A stretch of DNA of 64,000 nt from Sulfuricaulis limicola (GTDB lineage: Bacteria > Pseudomonadota > Gammaproteobacteria > Acidiferrobacterales > Sulfurifustaceae): contig NZ_AP014879.1 of the NCBI RefSeq assembly GCF_002355735.1, positions 1,674,001 to 1,738,000 on the forward strand, given 5' to 3'. The notes beneath the pieces are model-generated. The model was not told where the DNA came from, ran no database searches, and saw only the letters and a program-made list of their open reading frames with translations. A program made the position numbers and the translations under genes. Below, piece after piece: positions 10,633 through 55,532 of this stretch. The stretch's first letter is position 1. Every line of letters starts with the position of its first letter.

Positions 10633-10745
10633 GGCGGTTCGAGCCAACCACACCCCAGTACCCGAAATACCTGCTGCGGCTGCTTCCTTCCGGACCTGAC
10701 CGGGTTCACAAGCTTCCGTCGCCGAGGGGACCGGCTCTCACCGCC
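10633..10745 (-). ncRNA. ffs: 4.5S RNA (bacterial signal recognition particle RNA, small type)
   Basis: The minus strand contains the invariant SRP core GGTCAGGTCCGGAAGGAAGC followed by AGCC, the asymmetric internal loop and GGAA tetraloop of helix 8. The ends pair: GGCGGTGAGAGCC at the 5' side with GGCTCGAACCGCC at the 3' side, which sets the limits to about 113 nt. It binds Ffh to target nascent membrane proteins. Its position directly upstream of dnaX is seen in many bacteria. Exact ends are inferred from the pairing. Confidence 0.93.
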
Positions 10746-15434: not shown

Positions 15435-15640
<206 letters not shown>

Positions 15641-15743: not shown

Positions 15744-15832
15744 TGGCGGAGAGGGAGGGATTCGAACCCCCGTGGCGTTTCCGCCCATCTGATTTCGAGT
15801 CAGCGCCGTTGTGACCGCTTCGGTACCTCTCC
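15744..15832 (-). tRNA. tRNA-Ser (anticodon CGA)
   Basis: This 89-nt class II tRNA has acceptor GGAGAGG/CCTCTCC, encoded CCA, anticodon stem CTGA/TCAG with loop CTCGAAA (anticodon CGA, reads UCG), and variable arm GGCG/CGCC. A TATAAT box lies just upstream. A damaged second copy is at 15883-16048. Confidence 0.97.
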
Positions 15833-45414: not shown

Positions 45415-47145
45415 TCATCCCCGCTGCTCAGGGATAACATCGGCAAATACCAGCAACTCGAAAACATTCGTGTACTCCAGCCGCTGCAACAGCCGCACGG
45501 TGCGGATGGCTTCCGTTTCTTCCGCCAGCAAAAGACTGCTGCCGGGCGCGTAAACGCCGCGCGGCAGCAGCAGCGTCGCCGGGCGCTTCAGGGCTTCGAT
45601 GGCCGGCAGCAGCAGCGCGGGCTGATAATCGCTGTTACCGGTGCCGCGCACCGGGGCGATCGCCACCGGCTTGACGCCGGAGGCCAGCAGCTCGACACCC
45701 ATTTCGAGACTGTTGGCCTCGGGGCTTTTCATCCAGCGCACCACACCGGCACTCCAGCGACCGATTTCATCCAGCTGCTGAATGCCGATGACATCACCGA
45801 CCCGCACGTAAGTATGCGAGCTGCCATAGCGCACCAGTTGCAGGCCCTTGGGCGCGGCGTCCTTGATCTGCCAACGATCCACACGAAAGGCCTCGCCGAA
45901 CGTGACTGAAACCTCCCTGGGTTCTCGCCGTGGCATCGGACCCACCACCGGCTTGTCGAGCACGATGAAGTCCTCGTCCGTTTTAGCCTCACTGGCAATG
46001 TCTTCCTCGATATGCGCCGGCAGGACAATGCGATCGTCTGATGTCTCAGTGCGCGTCTTCGCCGCCGGCGCCACAAAAGCTTTCTGGCCGCTGGCAAAAA
46101 AATGCAGCGCCGGAATGCCGGCGCATACGAAGGCCGGCCCGCTGCGCCGGATGCGCGAGTATTGCCGCCGTGGCGACTGGCCCCAGGCGCGCATCATGCG
46201 TTGCAACATGTCGAGACAGACGGAATCCAGGCACTCGAAACCGAGTGACAGCGTGCGCGCGCTGTCGCCCTTTTGCAGGCGCTGGATGAAAAACTGGATC
46301 GAGCCCAGCAGTTCCAGGGCGTCCAGCACGCGCAGCCCTTGACCCGGCTGGAACTCCACGCCTCGCGGAAACGGTACCGGCGGCGCATCGGTCACGGGAT
46401 CGATGAGAAAATATCCGGCCGCCGGCGCGGCCTCGAGATTGTCCCGCAACACCGCCTTCCCGCCCCACTGATGCAGGAAGCGCTGCACCTGCCGGCATTC
46501 GTTCTGCGGCAGCTGGTAGGGATTGCTCAAACCCAGCAGCAGGATGCGAATGTATTCCTGGTTGAGCGTGGTTTTCGCGGCCACGGGGGCGGGCGTGTCG
46601 AGCACTTCCTGTGTCAGCTCGTGTTCGGCGGCATACTGATAGATCGCATGCAGCTCGCGCCACACCTCCGGAGGATACGGCATGTACACCTGGTACGAAT
46701 GCAGCAACACCTCGCCGAGATAATGCAGGGCACGCACCAGCGCCTGTGCCCGCAGGGATTTCCGGCCCCAACGCAGCCGCTGCTTTTCCAGGTCCTGCAG
46801 GCAACCCTTGTAGCCGTAGGCCATTTCCATGTGCAGCTGGCGGATGAACTCTGCCAGTTGGCGCTTCTTCGGCGTCAGCGGCAGCGCGGCACGGGTGAAG
46901 TAGGATTCCAGCGCCGCCGTGACGGAGGCCACCGGCGAGTTGTACAGCTCCATCAGCTCGAAGCGGCGCGCGGCGTCCAGCTCCTGGCGATTGAGCGTGT
47001 AAAGCGCCTGGTAGATTTCGCGCGCGGTCTCGGCGCTGTCGGCGAGCGGCAGGGAAGCCAGCCACGCTTGCGCGTACTTGGGATCGGTTTCGGCCATCCA
47101 GGCCGAAACGCGCTTCACGGGCATCGAAAGGGCGAGTCCGGTCAC
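45415..47145 (-). CDS. Large conserved-looking cytoplasmic protein of unknown function, possible PilZ-like C-terminus
   Basis: The 576-residue protein has no signal or transmembrane segment. The N-terminal 380 residues are helical (for example YNSPVASVTAALESYF, PLTPKKRQLAEFIRQLHME, LGEVLLHSYQVYMPYPPEVW). The C-terminal 150 residues look like small beta domains (VRVGDVIGIQQL, RWSAGVVRWMKSPEANSLEMGVELLASGVKP), reminiscent of PilZ-type folds but without a clear RxxxR motif. No function is assigned. It is read toward the lipoprotein gene. Confidence 0.75.
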   Translation of the reverse strand: MTGLALSMPVKRVSAWMAETDPKYAQAWLASLPLADSAETAREIYQALYTLNRQELDAARRFELMELYNSPVASVTAALESYFTRAALPLTPKKRQLAEFIRQLHMEMAYGYKGCLQDLEKQRLRWGRKSLRAQALVRALHYLGEVLLHSYQVYMPYPPEVWRELHAIYQYAAEHELTQEVLDTPAPVAAKTTLNQEYIRILLLGLSNPYQLPQNECRQVQRFLHQWGGKAVLRDNLEAAPAAGYFLIDPVTDAPPVPFPRGVEFQPGQGLRVLDALELLGSIQFFIQRLQKGDSARTLSLGFECLDSVCLDMLQRMMRAWGQSPRRQYSRIRRSGPAFVCAGIPALHFFASGQKAFVAPAAKTRTETSDDRIVLPAHIEEDIASEAKTDEDFIVLDKPVVGPMPRREPREVSVTFGEAFRVDRWQIKDAAPKGLQLVRYGSSHTYVRVGDVIGIQQLDEIGRWSAGVVRWMKSPEANSLEMGVELLASGVKPVAIAPVRGTGNSDYQPALLLPAIEALKRPATLLLPRGVYAPGSSLLLAEETEAIRTVRLLQRLEYTNVFELLVFADVIPEQRG

Positions 47146-47364: not shown

Positions 47365-47688
47365 ATGACGTACGTGGTCACGGAAAACTGTATCCGCTGC
47401 AAATACACGGATTGCGTGGAAGTCTGCCCGGTGGATTGTTTCCATGAAGGCCCGAATTTCCTGGTCATTGACCCCGACGAATGCATCGATTGCACCCTGT
47501 GCGTGCCGGAATGCCCGGTAAATGCCATTTTTGCCGAAGACGACCTGCCGGAAGATCAGAAGCAATACACTGCCCTCAATGCCGAACTGGCCAAGAAATG
47601 GCCGGTGCTGACCGAGAAAAAACCCGCGCCCGCGGACGCCGCCGAGTGGGAAAACAAGCCCGACAAACTCAAGTACCTTGAGCGCTGA
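47365..47688 (+). CDS. fdxA: Seven-iron ferredoxin FdxA
   Basis: The 107-residue Azotobacter FdI-type ferredoxin has [3Fe-4S]/[4Fe-4S] ligands in [17 protein letters not shown] (Cys9-25) and [12 protein letters not shown] (Cys40-50). The C-terminal extension ([19 protein letters not shown]) is typical. An AGAAGG ribosome site precedes the ATG. Its last bases overlap the AddB-like reading frame, so the two may be co-transcribed. Confidence 0.95.
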
Positions 47689-50587
47689 CGCACCGGTCAT
47701 CCTGGTTCCCTACGGAGACGATCCGCTACGCCATCTCGCCACGCTGCTGCTGGAACGGCATAAAGACCGACTCCCCGACTTAAGTCGCCAAACCGTACTG
47801 CTGCCGCACACGAGCGCGGTGCCGCGCTTCCGCCGGCTGCTGCGCGCGCAGGCGGAACAAAAAGATTTCCCCGCCCTGCTCCCGCCCGTCACCGGCACAC
47901 TGACTGCCTGGGCGGGGCGTTTCGCCGGCGACGATCAACACCATCTGAGTTCCACTGCGCGCCAGATCCTGCTGCTCGACCTGTTGCATGACTATCCGCG
48001 CTGGCTGCGCCAATACGGCGACTGGCCGCTGGTGGACAGCCTGCTGACCCTGTTCGACGAGCTGGCCCTGCATGCAGGCCGGCATTCCAGCAGCGCCGAT
48101 TCGATCCGGCATGTCCTTGCAGGGCACGACGTGGACACGGATGACTATTCGCCCTTCAGCGATGAAGCGCAACTGGTACAGGAACTGTGGAACGCCTGGC
48201 ACGAGCGTCTCGCGAAAAACAATCTTCAGGATCCGGTGCGGTGCTATACGGATGGTCTGGCGCACAGCCTCGAACGGCTGCCGGCGGGCACGAATATTTA
48301 TCTCGCCGGTTTTGCTGATTTCGCGGACGTGGAGATCGCCTGGATCAGGACACTGGTGGCACGCGGCGGTATGACTCTGCTGCTGCACGGTTCAGCCGAT
48401 AACGCCATGGAAAATCCGGCGGCGCGTCTTCTGAGCGCATTAACGACAAAACCGCATGCCATCGCGTTGGCCGATGCCTACGCGGATTTTCTTGATCGTG
48501 TCTTTGCCGCTGACGCGGGTCATTTGCATGAACGCGCGCGACAGCAGGCGGCGGCCGCGCCGGTCAGCCCCGCACGCGGGCGCCTGACGCTGCACGAGGC
48601 CGCCGACGCGGAATCCGAGGCACGCGCCATCGATCTGCAGGTACGGCGCTGGCTCACCCAGGGCCGGCGCGACATCGGCATCGTCACCAACGACCGCAAG
48701 CTGGCGCGGCGCGTGCGCGCCCTGCTGGAACGCGCCAACGTCGGTCTGGTGGACGCGGGCGGCTGGGCGCTTTCGACCACCAGCGCTGCCACGGCGCTGG
48801 CGCGCTGGCTCGAATGCGTGGAGCAGAATTTCTCCCACGCGCCCCTGCTCGATCTGCTGAAGTCACCGTTCCTGCAACCCGGCGTCGCGCGCGCCGAACT
48901 CGACCGTATGGTGCCGCTGTTCGAGCAGAGTGTCGTGCGGGCGCGCAACATCACTTCCGGGCTCGAACATTACCGTCATGGCCTCGAGCGCGCCGGCGCG
49001 GATGGGAGCGATGGGATTGGCGAAGCGCAACAGGCGCTGACACAGCTTCTGGAACGGCTGGAAAATGCCGCCGCGCCGCTGATCCCTCTGCTGGCGGCGC
49101 GCGCGCGACCGTCGCTGGAATTCCTCGAAGCGCTGCAAACGAGCCTGGAAAAGCTGGGCCTGGCGGCCGGATTCGAGAACGACGACGCCGGCCGCGAATT
49201 GCTGCACGTGCTCGAGGAAATGCGCGCGGCGGCCGCGCACAGCTCACTGCGCCTGGCGTGGACCGGTTTTCACCAGTGGCTGCGGCGCGGCATGGAACAG
49301 CGGCGTTTCCACCCGCCGATGCAGGGCGGCGGCGTGGAGCTGATGAGCTTTGCGGAAGCGCGGCTCTACCGCTTCGACGCACTCATCATCGCCGGTGCCA
49401 CGCGTGAGCATCTGCCGGGACAGATCGGCGCGCCGCCGTATTTCAATGACAGCGCGCGCAGCGAGCTGGGGCTGCCCTCGCTGGCGCGGCGATACGCCGT
49501 GCTGTTCCAGGATTTCCGTCGTCTGCTCGAGGCCGCGCCGCAGGTCATGGTCAGCCTGCGTCGCGAACAGGATGGCGAGCGTCTGGTGCCGAGCCCGTGG
49601 GTGGAACGGATTCGCACGTTTCATTCCCTCGCCTGGCGTGAATCCCTGGGCGATCCCGAACTGGAATGGCTGGTGCAACAGCCCGCCGCCGTCATCGCGC
49701 AACGCGATGCGCCGTTGCCGGCACCGGTTACGCCACCGGCCGCGCATCTGCCGCCGGCCATGCTGCCGGCGGCGTTCACCGCCACGGACTGCCAGCGTCT
49801 CATGGATTGTCCCTACCAGTTCTTCGCCGCCCGCGGCCTAGGCCTGGCGCCGGAAGACGAGGTGCGCGAGGAAATCGAAAAAGTGGATTACGGCATCCAT
49901 GTGCATCGCATCCTGCAGGCGTTTCATACCGGCGTTCCCGGGCTGCCCGGTCCATGGCGGGAAAAACTCGATGACGGTACGCGCGCGCAAGCCGAAGAAC
50001 TGCTGCGCCAGATTTCGGAACAGGTGTTCGCCCGGGACCTGCGCCGGCGTTTCCTGGCACGCGGCTGGGTGCATCGCTGGGAGCAATGCATTCCGGCTTA
50101 CCTGGACTGGGAGCTGAATCGCGCCGCGGACTGGAAGGTCGAGGCGACCGAACTAAAAAAGGAGCGCGTCTACAGGGATGGCGTCACGCAAATCGCCCTG
50201 ACCGGGCGCATCGACCGCCTCGACCGCGGCCGCGACGGTTACGCTATCATCGATTACAAGACCGGCGCGGTGCCGGCGCGTGATCCGGTGCTGCGGGGAG
50301 AGAAAATCCAGCTCCCGTTTTATGCCCTGCTGCTGGAGCAGGACAATATTGCCGGCGCGGCGTTTCTGACGCTGGATGACGAAGAAGCAAAGGAAAAGAC
50401 GGCTCTCGATGGCGAAACGCTGGCCATGCTGCGCAGCGCGATCCGGGAACGCTTGCTGCTGCTCAAGCAGCAACTCGACGCCGGCGCGCCGCTGCCTGCG
50501 TGGGGCGACATGGAAACCTGCCGGATTTGTGAAATGGAAGGACTGTGCCGCCGGGAAATGTGGACCGAACCGGATGCGACGACATGA
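47678..50587 (+). CDS. AddB-like PD-(D/E)XK nuclease with Fe-S staple
   Basis: The 969-residue protein has an inactivated UvrD-like N-terminal region ([20 protein letters not shown]) and a C-terminal RecB-family nuclease with the motif [21 protein letters not shown] near residue 840. Four cysteines fit an AddB-type [4Fe-4S] staple: one in [14 protein letters not shown] (about 711) and three in [10 protein letters not shown] (about 946-953). It should partner the AddA-like helicase 281 bases downstream in resecting double-strand breaks, replacing RecBCD. The start is uncertain: TTG 47678 inside fdxA is the only in-frame candidate before conserved sequence. Confidence 0.88.
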
Positions 50588-50598
50588 TGAATAGCGAT

Positions 50599-50744
50599 AA
50601 AAAAAAGAGGCGGCCGTTCATGGCCGCCTCCGGTATTTCCACTGATCACTTGCTTCCGGAATGCATCCTTGCATCCCTTAAGACTTCCCTGCTTACGTCC
50701 GATGTCGTCAGCTTCGATATGTCCCTATCGGGCTTCCCTTCCTC
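50599..50744 (-). ncRNA. Candidate CsrB/RsmZ-type regulatory RNA
   Basis: This 146-nt unit is antisense to the addB-addA gap. Ten GGA trinucleotides occur on the minus strand (at 50740, 50735, 50722, 50698, 50686, 50674, 50666, 50655, 50638 and 50629, low coordinate of each). Several lie in hairpin loops: CGATA-GGGACA-TATCG, ATGCA-AGGA-TGCAT and a GCTGACG/CGTAAGC stem with loop ACATCGGA. A sigma-70-like promoter lies just upstream and a perfect 9-bp stem (GAGGCGGCC/GGCCGCCTC) with eight T ends it. Dense GGA in loops plus this size are hallmarks of RNAs that titrate CsrA/RsmA. No csrA gene is in the window, so the assignment rests on sequence pattern. Confidence 0.75.
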
Positions 50745-50749
50745 TTCAA

Positions 50750-50777
50750 ACTATAGGTGCCGGGACTGAAGTTGCAA
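50750..50777 (-). promoter_or_regulatory. Promoter of the candidate CsrB/RsmZ-type RNA
   Basis: TTGCAA (50772-50777) and TATAGT (50750-50755) are spaced by 16 bases on the minus strand, four and five of six matches to the sigma-70 boxes. The RNA should start near 50744. I see no TGTAAG-type GacA box upstream. Confidence 0.65.
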
Positions 50778-50868: not shown

Positions 50869-53800
50869 ATGATGGACGTATCGCGCGCCACCGCCCCGGA
50901 AAACAACGTGGTGGTTCAGGCTGCCGCCGGAACCGGCAAGACCTGGCTGCTGACCAGCCGCATCATTCGTCTGCTGCTCCAGGGGACCGAACCCGGCGCC
51001 ATCCTGGCCCTCAGCTTCACGCGCAAGGCCGCCGGCGAGATCCACGAACGCGTCACCGAGCGTCTGCTGGCACTGGCCGCGAGCGACGAAGACGCGCTCG
51101 TTAAACAGCTAGAGGAGATCGGGGCCGGCACCGATCCGGCCAGCCGCGAGGCCGCGCGCGGGCTTTACGAAAAACATCTGAGCGCGATCCATCCGCTGCG
51201 TACCACCACGTTTCACGCCTTCTGTCAGGAAATCCTGCGGCGCTTTCCGCTCGAAGCCGACGTACCGCCGGGATTCGAGCTGGTCGAATCAACGGCTGAA
51301 CTGGAGCAGGCTGCCTGGCTCGCGCTCGACAGAAAGGCCGCGCGCGACAGCGGAGGCACGCTGGCCAATGCGCTCGACACGCTGTTGCGGGAATGCGGCG
51401 GTGTCACCGGCACGCATTCGGCGCTGGATGATTTTCTGGCGCATCGCAGCGACTGGTGGGCCTATACCGAAAATGAATCGAACCCGGTGGATTTTGCCGC
51501 CACGCAGCTCGGACAAATGCTGGACGTGGCAGAAGACGCCGATCCGCACGCGTCCTTCATGCGCGATCCCGCCGTGCGCGAACATATCGCGCGTTACGCC
51601 GAGCTGCTGGCCGGTCACCCTACGGCAACGAATCAGGAATACATCGCGAACCTGACGCGGGCGCTGGCGGACACGCAAGCTTCATCGCGAAGCTTTGAAT
51701 GGGTTCGCGGCGTGGTGCTGACCAACATGGATGAGCCACGCAAACTGAAACGTTCAGACGCCCTCGAGAAAAAGCTCGGCACCGACCGAACCGATGAGAT
51801 CATCCGCCTGCACCAGGAGATCGCCTCGCGGTTGCTGGCGGCGATAGCCGGGCACAAGCGCCGCTGGACCTTCATGGTTTCGCGTGCCTGGTATGTCTGC
51901 GGTGTGGCCCTGCTCGAGGAATACCAGCGACTCAAGCTGGAGCGCGGCGTGCTCGACTTCGCCGACCTGGAATGGAAAACCTATCGCCTGCTGAACCGCA
52001 GCCGCCATGCCGAGTGGGTGCAGTACAAACTGGATCAGCGCATCGATCATCTGCTGGTGGATGAATTCCAGGACACCAACCCGACCCAGTGGCGGCTGCT
52101 GCTGCCGTTGTTGCAGGAGATCGTGGCCGGCGATCCGGAGCGCCGCCGCAGCGTGTTTCTCGTCGGTGACGAGAAACAGTCGGTGTACCGCTTCCGCCGC
52201 GCCGACCCGCGCCTGTTTCATGCCGCGCGTCACTGGCTGCAACAGCACGCGCAGGCGCACACCCTGACCCAGCACCTGTCACGGCGCTCCTCGCCCGCCA
52301 TCATCCGTTTCGTAAATCTGGTGTTTCATCGGTCCAGCGACGTTGAACCCGAAACTGACAGTGATTACCCGTTGCAGGATTTCCAGCCGCATGACACGCA
52401 CCACCGGCAGCTATGGGGCCGGGCCGAACTGCTGCCGCTGGTGCGGCGCGGCGACAAAACCGGCGAAAAAGCGGCGCCGGCATGGCGCAATCCGCTGGAA
52501 CGGCCGCGCCAGGTGGATGAGGACCAGCGGCATCGCCAGGAGGGCGATCTGATCGCCGGAAAAATCCGGGAAATACTGGGCCGGCTGATCGCCGAGGGCG
52601 AACGGGTGCGGTCCCTGACCGGCGACGACATCATGATCCTGCTGCGCGACCGCACTCACGCACGCTTCTACGAGGAGGCCCTGCGACGCGCTGGCATACC
52701 TTATATAGGAACGGGGCGCGGAGCCTTCATGCAATCGCTGGAGGTGCGCGACCTTGTACATCTGCTGCATCAGCTGGTCGAGCCCTATAACGACCTGGCA
52801 CTGGCCTCGGCCCTGCGCTCCCCGCTGTTCGCCGCCACCGAGGACGACCTGCTGCGTCTGGCGCAAAGCCCGCCGGGCACGTGGCGCATGCGCCTTGAGC
52901 GACTGGCAATGGGGCAGACGCCGGACGGCGCGCTTGCGCGCGCACGGCAACTGCTGCCGCGCTGGAGCAGCTATGTCGGCCGCGTGCCGGTGCACGACCT
53001 GCTCGACCGCATCTACTGCGAAGGCAACGTGGTGGCGCGCTACCTGGCCGCGGCGGTGCCGCATCTGCGGCCGCGCGTGGAGGCCAATCTCAACCACTTT
53101 CTCGAACTGGCACTGGAGGTCGACAGCGGGCGTTATCCGAGCCTGTCGCATTTTCTCGCCTGGCTCGAAAGGCAGGCGGAGCATGACGACAAGTCGCCGG
53201 CGGAGCCGGCCTGGAACCGCGCGCCGCGCGTGCGCGTCATGACCATCCATGCCGCCAAGGGGCTGGAATCGCCCGTGGTGTTTCTTGCCGACGCCGCGCG
53301 CAGCACCGACAACCGCGATCGCGGACTGCGCCCGCTGGTCGACTGGCCGGTACAGGACTCGCGACCGCGGTATTTTCATCTTGGCGGCGCCAGTAAGGAA
53401 ATCGACGATATCAGCCAGGCGCTGCGTACCGAACAGCAATGGCCGGCCCGTCGCGAGGAGGCCAACCTGTTGTACGTGGCGCTCACGCGCGCACGCCAGA
53501 TGCTCTATGTCTCGGGTTGCGAACCCGGCCACGGCGGGCGCGGCTGGTACGGCTTCGTCGAAAAGCGCCTGCGTCACGCCGGCGATTCCGGCGAAGCGGC
53601 ACGCGCTGGGCTCCAGCTTGACAACATTTCCCTGGACGACGGCAAAACCGTGTTTAACACCTGCGCCTGGCTGGAATTCGGCCAGCCGCCATCGACACAG
53701 CCAATGGAGCCGCCGATATCCATGACGGGATTCCGTGTCGATCCACGGCTGACGCAGCCGTTTCCCGAGCTGCCGGAAACCGGAATCCTCAACCCGAGCC

Positions 53801-54345
53801 GCTCTGCACAGCCGGAAGACGATTATCCGGACGAGGCCACCGGCTTCACGGAGGCCCGTACGCCGCAGCAACGCCGCGGCAAAGTGATTCATCGCATGCT
53901 GGAACGACTGACAAACGGCGAGACGCACGCGACGGTCGAAAAAACGATATGGCAGGAATTCGGCGAGTGGCTGGAGGAAAAGGACTTCAACCAGTGGTGG
54001 CGCGAGGCCTGTGCCGTGCCGGATCAGGCGGATTTTCGCGAGTTTTTCGATCCCGCCCGCTACCAGGAGGCGCGCAATGAGATCCCGATTCTCTATCGCG
54101 ACGGCGGGCGCGATGTCTATGGCGTCATCGACCGGCTCGTCATCCGACAGGAAGAAATCGTGCTCATCGACTACAAGACCCATGCGCGCGCCACCCGGGA
54201 CAACGTCGCTCGGCTGGCAGAGGATTTCCGGGAACAGATGCGCCAGTACGGCGAAGGCGCGCGCCGGCTGTGGCCGGGTAAAAAATTGAGGCTGGTGCTG
54301 CTCTTCACCGCCTGCGGCGAGATGGTGGAACTGGAGAAAATATAA
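50869..54345 (+). CDS. AddA-like UvrD/Rep helicase-nuclease
   Basis: The 1158-residue SF1A helicase has Walker A AAAGTGKTWLLTSRI (about 18-32), LSFTRKAAGEI, Walker B VDEFQDTNPTQW, the GDEKQSVYRFRRADP motif and a motif V/VI pair (VMTIHAAKGLESPVVFL, LLYVALTRARQMLYVSG). A C-terminal PD-(D/E)XK nuclease carries GVIDRLVIRQEEIVLIDYKT (about 1084-1103). It pairs with the AddB-like protein for double-strand break processing. ATG 50869 or 50872 may start it. Confidence 0.9.
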   Translation: MMDVSRATAPENNVVVQAAAGTGKTWLLTSRIIRLLLQGTEPGAILALSFTRKAAGEIHERVTERLLALAASDEDALVKQLEEIGAGTDPASREAARGLYEKHLSAIHPLRTTTFHAFCQEILRRFPLEADVPPGFELVESTAELEQAAWLALDRKAARDSGGTLANALDTLLRECGGVTGTHSALDDFLAHRSDWWAYTENESNPVDFAATQLGQMLDVAEDADPHASFMRDPAVREHIARYAELLAGHPTATNQEYIANLTRALADTQASSRSFEWVRGVVLTNMDEPRKLKRSDALEKKLGTDRTDEIIRLHQEIASRLLAAIAGHKRRWTFMVSRAWYVCGVALLEEYQRLKLERGVLDFADLEWKTYRLLNRSRHAEWVQYKLDQRIDHLLVDEFQDTNPTQWRLLLPLLQEIVAGDPERRRSVFLVGDEKQSVYRFRRADPRLFHAARHWLQQHAQAHTLTQHLSRRSSPAIIRFVNLVFHRSSDVEPETDSDYPLQDFQPHDTHHRQLWGRAELLPLVRRGDKTGEKAAPAWRNPLERPRQVDEDQRHRQEGDLIAGKIREILGRLIAEGERVRSLTGDDIMILLRDRTHARFYEEALRRAGIPYIGTGRGAFMQSLEVRDLVHLLHQLVEPYNDLALASALRSPLFAATEDDLLRLAQSPPGTWRMRLERLAMGQTPDGALARARQLLPRWSSYVGRVPVHDLLDRIYCEGNVVARYLAAAVPHLRPRVEANLNHFLELALEVDSGRYPSLSHFLAWLERQAEHDDKSPAEPAWNRAPRVRVMTIHAAKGLESPVVFLADAARSTDNRDRGLRPLVDWPVQDSRPRYFHLGGASKEIDDISQALRTEQQWPARREEANLLYVALTRARQMLYVSGCEPGHGGRGWYGFVEKRLRHAGDSGEAARAGLQLDNISLDDGKTVFNTCAWLEFGQPPSTQPMEPPISMTGFRVDPRLTQPFPELPETGILNPSRSAQPEDDYPDEATGFTEARTPQQRRGKVIHRMLERLTNGETHATVEKTIWQEFGEWLEEKDFNQWWREACAVPDQADFREFFDPARYQEARNEIPILYRDGGRDVYGVIDRLVIRQEEIVLIDYKTHARATRDNVARLAEDFREQMRQYGEGARRLWPGKKLRLVLLFTACGEMVELEKI

Positions 54346-54446: not shown

Positions 54447-55532
54447 TCAAGACACCACGGCCTGAATCACGCGGTTGCGCCCCGCTTCCTTGGCCTGGTA
54501 CAGCGCGGCGTCCACCTGCTTGAACAGCCAGACGGCCGGATCGGGCCCGTAGGAATCCACGCCCGGCTGCAGGCAGGCCATACCGATGCTCACGGTGACG
54601 TCCAGATCGATCCCTTCCGGAATCACGAAGGCGCTGTGCTCGATGCGGCTGCGCAGGCGTTCGGCGATGGCCGCGCCCTGGACGGGCGTGGTGCCCGGCA
54701 ACAACAGCACGAACTCCTCGCCGCCATAACGCGCCAGCACATCGCTGCCACGCAAGTCCTGGCCGAGCAGGCTGGCGATCTGACGCAGCACGCGGTCGCC
54801 GACCTGGTGACCGTACTGGTCGTTCACCTGCTTGAAGAAATCCACATCCACCAGCATGCACACCAGCGGCCCGGCCCGGCGCGCCCAGCGCTCCACCTCC
54901 TCCGCCAGGCGGCGTTCGAAGAAGCGCCGGTTGGAAATCCCGGTCAGGGGATCGGTGAGGCCGTCGAGCTTGAGACGTTCATGATTGATGGAGTTGTCGA
55001 TGCACATGGCCGCCACTGCCGCCAGGTGTTCCAGCAGATCCGTGGCGATGCCCGGAATGAAATGACGCGGATCGCGGCTGCCCTGGTTGAGGCTGCCGAT
55101 GAGTTCGCCGCGCCGGACCAGCGGCGTGACTGCCACTGAACCCGAGGCGCAGGGATGGTTGGAGAACAACAGCGCATGCAGGCGCTCATCGACCGGCCCC
55201 AGGCGCGGACGCCACGGCCTGGTAAAAAGCCCGTCCAGTGTCTCGCGCGGAATGGCGACAAAACTGCGCGCCCCGGAATCCGGCGCGCCACCGGCCTCGA
55301 TCAGACGCGTCATTTCGTATTCGGGATCGGCGCAGGCAACCGTGACGCAGTCGATGCCCGGAAAAGTCTCGGGAATACCCAGTGTGATGATGTCGATCAG
55401 GTCGGGAAGCGAAGGTGAACCGATCATGCGCACTTCGATCTGGCGAAAACCGGACCAGATGCGCTCGTTGTCGCGCAGTTGTTTGCTAAGCCTGATCCAC
55501 TCCCGCTCCTGCGTCGTGCTTGCCTGGTCCAT
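54447..55532 (-). CDS. Diguanylate cyclase (GAF-like/DUF484 sensor + GGDEF)
   Basis: The 361-residue cytoplasmic protein has an N-terminal coiled coil and a GAF-like domain (residues about 30-190). The C-terminal GGDEF domain has active site GGEEF (about 267) and an RxxD inhibitory site five residues before it (RGSDVLARYGGEEF), so it should make c-di-GMP with product inhibition. No membrane segment is visible. It reads away from dsbC and converges on the AddA-like gene. Confidence 0.93.
   Translation of the reverse strand: MDQASTTQEREWIRLSKQLRDNERIWSGFRQIEVRMIGSPSLPDLIDIITLGIPETFPGIDCVTVACADPEYEMTRLIEAGGAPDSGARSFVAIPRETLDGLFTRPWRPRLGPVDERLHALLFSNHPCASGSVAVTPLVRRGELIGSLNQGSRDPRHFIPGIATDLLEHLAAVAAMCIDNSINHERLKLDGLTDPLTGISNRRFFERRLAEEVERWARRAGPLVCMLVDVDFFKQVNDQYGHQVGDRVLRQIASLLGQDLRGSDVLARYGGEEFVLLLPGTTPVQGAAIAERLRSRIEHSAFVIPEGIDLDVTVSIGMACLQPGVDSYGPDPAVWLFKQVDAALYQAKEAGRNRVIQAVVS

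Follow-up and report, generated by a model that had tools for sequence, protein, structure and literature searches.

A candidate CsrA-sequestering RNA in the addB-addA gap of Sulfuricaulis limicola shares its fdxA-facing position with pseudomonad rsmZ

The addB-addA gap and its minus-strand RNA gene

The window analyzed here is a stretch of 64,000 nucleotides from Sulfuricaulis limicola. On its plus strand, the ferredoxin gene fdxA (47365–47688; NCBIfam FdxA_Protbact, 168.9 bits against a cut-off of 135) is followed by an addB-like gene for a PD-(D/E)XK nuclease (47678–50587; PF12705, and TIGR02786 at 227.1 bits, below its cut-off of 486.5) and by an addA-like helicase-nuclease gene (50869–54345; PF00580, and TIGR02784 at 614.7 bits, below its cut-off of 860.75). 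A GGDEF gene on the minus strand (54447–55532; PF00990) is, by synteny, the conserved neighbor on the far side. The gap between addB and addA measures 281 bases and holds a candidate sponge RNA on the minus strand (50599–50744); because both flanking genes lie on the plus strand, the RNA opposes them. It is faced by fdxA, a conserved neighbor, with addB intervening in the window. A 576-aa protein encoded beside fdxA (45415–47145, minus strand) is syntenic in many relatives of the order and has no match in Pfam or NCBIfam. The window's small SRP RNA (10639–10736) and two tRNAs (15553–15640 and 15747–15832), all on the minus strand, are ordinary.

The RNA gene is preceded by a sigma-70-like promoter (minus strand, 50777–50750), in which the -35 hexamer TTGCAA (50772–50777) and the -10 hexamer TATAGT (50750–50755) are separated by a 16-base spacer. 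This is the sole promoter-like site in the 601 bases scanned (shuffles: mean 0.4), and nine aligned sequences retain TTG in the -35 element and TATA(G/T)T in the -10 element. Transcription is predicted to start near 50744, and ten GGA motifs were counted in 50600–50744. The hairpin CGATA-GGGACA-TATCG (50715–50730) presents a GGA in its loop and folds at -6.8 kcal/mol within a 33-nt piece, although relatives conserve its stem poorly. Among the candidate CsrA sites, conservation is best for a further hairpin (50658–50677) with the loop AGGA, or AAGGAU if the inner A-U pair opens; a 23-nt piece with GATGCA-AGGA-TGCATT folds at -4.6 kcal/mol, and the hairpin has eight pairs in the whole-RNA fold, which is itself more stable than shuffles (z -2.6, 2 of 200). 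The terminator stem GAGGCGGCC/GGCCGCCTC (50607–50630) is a perfect 9 bp closing the loop ATGAAC, lengthened to 10 bp by the scan tool, and runs into eight T (50599–50606). Thus the promoter, the roughly 146 nt with ten GGA, both GGA-loop hairpins, and the terminator with its T run, all described in the earlier note, are present in the sequence. CsrB/CsrC and RsmY use the same mechanism and GGA-in-loop design as we propose for this RNA.

The ten GGA compare with 6.1–6.2 in shuffles (p 0.02, 200 shuffles), and in a separate set of 500 shuffles, ten GGA were reached by 6 and five ANGGA by 10. For this RNA taken alone, the number of GGA in loops lies within chance (2 against 1.2 expected, p 0.3). 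A background scan covering the window and sixty stretches (1.264 Mb, 44% of the genome) contained 1243 terminator-like sites, among which the window RNA, with 10 GGA and 5 ANGGA, ranked first on both counts. The sites ranked second to fifth by GGA (8–9) lie wholly within frames of at least 100 aa; outside such frames, the best other site by ANGGA, the 329246 stretch (6 GGA, 3 ANGGA), has a GGA count matched by 116 of 500 shuffles.

Elsewhere in the genome, a terminated stretch on the minus strand (L014:1501–1633, corresponding to C1:2287396–2287528) follows a 74-aa frame that we take to encode a TusA/SirA-like sulfur carrier. It contains 6 GGA in 133 nt, one of them ANGGA, and a strong hairpin, GGGCATCATC-TGGA-TGATGCCC. 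Six GGA were reached by 50 of 500 shuffles and hence do not exceed them, so we regard this stretch as no more than a weak candidate for a second sponge. In another genome (G032, L011:1501–1530), 30 bases near the start of a response-regulator-like frame match the middle of the window RNA, which reflects either chance or another sponge.

Conservation of the RNA and of its position

BLASTN recovered the RNA block in 7 of 9 genomes of the genus, S. limicola included; in the other genomes no match begins ahead of 50780 on the minus strand, so each starts in the -35 region or beyond it, and the matches extend as far as the T run (50600, in one case 50594). Among the 57 genomes of the order, a covariance model built from nine sequences (R1) matched 21, including 8 of the 9 in the genus, where the one missed is 77% complete (G002); the model had no match in the other 36 order genomes. 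We judged 20 of the 21 matches to be real and dropped one (G017) with 1 GGA in 88 nt. All 20 accepted RNAs lie at one locus, facing fdxA, and because R1 was run against whole genomes, this shared position was not built into the search. The order fdxA-addB-RNA-addA is found in ten genomes (S. limicola, G001, G003, G004, G005, G006, G008, G013, G016, and G028), and in nine others fdxA and the RNA are directly adjacent and addBA is absent at the locus (G009, G011, G015, G024, G029, G033, G037, G053, and G055), one of which (G011) has no addA match anywhere. The GGDEF gene comes next in the order loci wherever the sequence extends far enough. In G007 (L025:417–6598), the RNA persists although addBA has given way to a different RecB-like helicase together with a partner on the opposite strand from fdxA.

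As the earlier note expected, GGA positions and terminator are conserved in relatives. Six genomes of the genus retain 42 of 54 GGA cells, where random triplets average 34.8, a difference that is modest taken alone because 373 of 5000 random sets reach 42, and two distant members keep 5 of 9 GGA against 0.16–0.17 of other triplets. Covariation is weak, with compensatory change in 2 of 28 pairs.

Over the class, R1 matched 6 of 274 genomes, S. limicola included; two matches (G180 and G256) adjoin addA, and three (G159, G306, and G259), with 0–3 GGA, look false and were rejected. We also surveyed 80 fdxA loci, for which the first automatic scan, requiring a strict terminator, missed RNAs later found by eye. 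At four loci (L066, L068, L071, and L080), the gap that follows addB contains GGA-rich minus-strand stretches. These form hairpins with GGA in the loop, for example GTCAAGGATTGAC, and a terminator-like stem whose loop includes GGGA; a good T run comes after this stem only in L071 and is lacking in L066, L068, and L080. At L069, L118, and L121, addB and addA are close together and no GGA-rich RNA is seen. Another terminated RNA-like stretch with 5–6 GGA lies directly after fdxA on the minus strand at two loci (L073:10330–10482 and L116:1407–1561); the two stretches have the core GACCTCTRACG-RRTGACCATCGTA in common and were left out of the RNA count.

An addA match was present in 71 of 369 class genomes, 68 of which were surveyed (in G199 and G366 the match lies close to a contig start and in G324 it is partial, and these three were omitted) and 67 scored, G377 being too short. 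In 21 of the 67, a long frame, identified as addB in 19, ends less than 100 bases from addA, and in 46 the distance is at least 100 bases. Among these 46, a terminator opposite to the addA strand is preceded by at least 6 GGA in 15 (S. limicola and 14 other genomes, from 10 families), while on the addA strand, used as a control, none of the 46 reaches 6 GGA and the maximum is 3. In each of the 15, the observed GGA count was matched by 0 of 30 shuffles. Upstream of addA, addB was identified in nine (seven, together with G266 and G145 at a looser limit) and was not identified in the remaining six. Inspection by eye showed three further genomes (G179, G177, and G355) to be rich in GGA, but they did not satisfy the terminator rule and stand outside the 15. 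These class RNAs resemble the window RNA in position, strand, and GGA-in-loop hairpins, and the 14 counted also have the terminator, but their sequences are not alignable with it by eye or by model. In the addB-addA gap of one genome (G389, L173), the minus strand has 28 GGA in about 577 bases and the plus strand 2, a density more like that of CsrB than of RsmZ.

When 29 RNAs of the locus were pooled (12 of the 20 order RNAs, 14 class RNAs chosen by GGA count, and 3 of the 4 found by eye), GGA numbered 214 against 127.5 expected, ANGGA 133 against 32.0 in shuffles, a fourfold enrichment, and GGA in loops closed by 4 bp 80 against 27.3, a threefold enrichment.

Rfam models, the pseudomonad rsmZ locus, and GacA

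The earlier note had likened the RNA to CsrB, CsrC, RsmY, and RsmZ, but membership in these families was not borne out at Rfam cut-offs: at gathering scores, no sponge family matched anywhere in the window. In a permissive search of 401 bases around the RNA, the best match was RF00166 (PrrB_RsmZ), full length, at 25.7 bits (E 0.00038) against a gathering score of 44, and CsrB (RF00018), CsrC (RF00084), and RsmY (RF00195) gave no match at E up to 10. We regard the RF00166 match as weak evidence because other terminators of the genome reach 20–22 bits (21.9, 20.7, and 20.1), and in a 68.8-kb search with this model the window RNA did not fall below E 0.01. An RF00166 search of the S. limicola genome returned twelve weak matches, none above cut-off, and at first passed over the window RNA; when six own-genome matches were recounted on their own strand, five proved to have 1–3 GGA each and were rejected, and the sixth is the L014 stretch with 6 GGA. 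None of the relatives' RNAs tried matched the RsmZ model. One relative gave a CsrC match at its terminator (14.5 bits, E 0.031) and one an RsmY match (15.5 bits, E 0.14), both far under cut-off. Across the 369 class genomes, RF00166 scored above cut-off once, in the family of G217, which we take to be pseudomonads; five weaker matches have 0–3 GGA and no fdxA at their loci and were discarded.

Within that presumed pseudomonad family, RF00166 is above cut-off in 15 of 20 genomes. Of 24 pseudomonad RF00166 loci, 12 carry rpoS (found with a query that is RpoS by family) upstream and codirectional with the RNA, and in 9 of the 12 an oppositely oriented fdxA follows downstream. The fdxA side of this arrangement recurs in the window, with addB in between, and in the nine addBA-less members, where the two are directly adjacent. 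A match to rpoS was found neither in the window nor in the order loci L026, L185, and L188. The location that the earlier note found unfamiliar is therefore partly explained: its fdxA side is that of the pseudomonad rsmZ locus, whereas the rpoS side is not shared and addBA surrounds the RNA. The window RNA thus resembles RsmZ/PrrB in size, GGA repeats, terminator, fdxA-facing position, and a weak full-length model match; it differs in scoring under the gathering score, in having no rpoS in the window and addBA around it, and in belonging to an order whose tested genomes have neither GacA above cut-off nor a GacA box.

A study of Alcanivorax dieselolei describes CsrR2, an RNA antisense to a neighboring ferredoxin gene and predicted, among sequenced sRNAs, to be CsrA-related, and its authors point out the fdxA-rsmZ organization of Pseudomonas (PMC9788540). 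As described there, CsrR2 is like the window RNA in being GGA-rich and antisense to a ferredoxin gene and in having a possible sigma-70 promoter, and its expression is steady; it belongs, however, to another genus, and its neighbors are named hpt and fdx rather than addBA (PMC9788540). CsrB/CsrC and RsmY, as outlined in PMC7652899, have the mechanism proposed here and a GGA-in-loop design, but the models of these families do not match the window's 401 bases.

GacA was sought with NF007018 at a cut-off of 280 bits, which three pseudomonads exceed at 318.7–321.6. None of the 12 order genomes tested reached it (best 190.6 bits), and in S. limicola the best response regulator scored 161.2 bits and uvrC is not preceded by a response regulator gene. 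Outside the order the RNA-bearing genomes differ in this respect, 12 of the 16 tested being above the cut-off and a thirteenth at 270 bits; G266, G214, and G371 have no GacA above it. Similarly, GacA-like boxes (TGTARG-N6-CYTACA, 0–1 mismatch) precede the RNA in G090, G111, G145, and G214 (0 of 60 shuffles), and none beyond chance was seen in the 12 order RNAs examined of the 20. The best box in S. limicola has 4 mismatches, is equalled by 50 of 60 shuffles, and none lies near the RNA. The addB-addA gap of G111 (L162) contains two tandem GGA-rich terminated RNAs with a perfect TGTAGG-N6-CCTACA box between them. An element TGTARG....TTCTGAA lies 61–232 bases upstream of the RNA segment in G180, G127, G256, G291, L066, and L080; it was noticed after the fact, with a box fit equalled by 1 to 23 of 60 shuffles, and is possibly a variant GacA box. 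Because GacA above cut-off and its box are missing where tested, activation of the sponge in the window's order probably differs, and the order probably keeps it under control other than GacA, although a diverged GacA scoring below these values is possible.

CsrA and the probable function of the RNA

The earlier note had looked to csrA elsewhere in the genome, and the gene is present, with one match at 91.4 bits against a cut-off of 27. The protein reaches 113.6 bits as equivalog CsrA, above NCBIfam cut-offs, begins MLILTRRIGETLNIG, and carries L4 and R44, which are named key CsrA residues in PMC7652899. Among the 37 genomes that carry such an RNA, including three in which it was seen only by eye, 36 have csrA, as do all 28 carriers with completeness of 90% or more and contamination of 5% or less; csrA was not found in G005 (350 contigs, 94% complete). 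A genome of the same family (G016) has 16 CsrA-family matches (at C67:23136–23399, C55:12629–12895, and C69:10338–10604, for example), several of them tandem within single frames of 128–170 aa, which look as if they were fused CsrA domains.

We conclude, with a probability of roughly 0.88, that the window RNA is a CsrA-sequestering sRNA, the local counterpart of Pseudomonas RsmZ. The sigma-70-type promoter would direct synthesis of a terminated RNA of about 145 nt. The repeated (A)NGGA sites on it, some of them in hairpin loops and the AAGGAU loop (50677–50658) being the best candidate, would bind CsrA dimers and draw them off mRNAs; as a consequence, we propose, CsrA-repressed genes would be translated. 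The RNA has the features of the sponge class, namely many GGA and ANGGA, partly in hairpin loops, and its own promoter and terminator, with the loop-GGA part beyond chance for the set of RNAs rather than for the window RNA alone. Since the Rfam score and the rpoS side failed, we file it under the Csr/Rsm sponge functional class, of which it is most probably a new member working like RsmZ. The CsrA-antagonist function predicted in the earlier note is accordingly supported, by the kept GGA sites and terminator and by the presence of csrA.

Other explanations account for parts of these observations. A cis-antisense RNA could tune addA (or addB), either through colliding transcription or by annealing to an addBA read-through transcript, and in keeping with this the RNA opposes addBA between both genes in ten order genomes, S. 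limicola included, and in other genomes of the class is found ahead of addA on the opposite strand. That the RNA is kept in the nine order loci that lack addBA and beside the different RecB-like pair of G007, and that what class members have in common is GGA density rather than alignable sequence, makes antisense action improbable as the main function; the RNA may have it as a second, minor role. Still less probable is a genuine GGA-repeat sRNA that works chiefly through base pairing to mRNAs rather than through CsrA. Such pairing could explain why the GGA-free GCTGAC and GTGATCAGT are kept in 6 of 7 aligned genus members, but the fourfold ANGGA enrichment across unalignable RNAs and the locus in common with rsmZ both favor CsrA. 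Finally, the signal might come from an overlapping frame, in a protein-coding or leader element: a 74-aa plus-strand frame spans the RNA, and minus-strand frames of 109 and 59 aa start in its last ~50 nt and continue past the terminator. Against this, no minus-strand frame of at least 20 aa lies within 50599–50744 and the RNAs of distant relatives differ by insertions and deletions, and we consider a coding origin highly improbable.

An older computational prediction of CsrB-like RNAs was reportedly made by Kulkarni in 2006. Literature searches combining CsrB/RsmZ with addA/addB, and combining Sulfuricaula, Acidiferrobacter, and CsrA, found no report, although earlier mention of single members is possible.

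For the CsrA-sequestering RNA proposed here, we tentatively envisage, at somewhat below even odds, that throughout the class the sponge has long resided at the fdxA/addBA locus, first arranged as fdxA-addB-RNA-addA, and that rsmZ, CsrR2, and the window RNA are remnants of one ancestral gene. This gene would have persisted when addBA was lost and also, in the window's order, when GacA disappeared, passing to new or constitutive control. Because Csr sponge RNAs evolve faster than sequence models can follow, little is known of their history. With a fixed address, either facing fdxA or ahead of addA on the other strand, such RNAs could be located in genomes that yield no Rfam match, and this address suggests a single common locus for RNAs beyond alignment. 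In the window's order, nature would then provide a test of sponge function in the absence of GacA, the usual activator.
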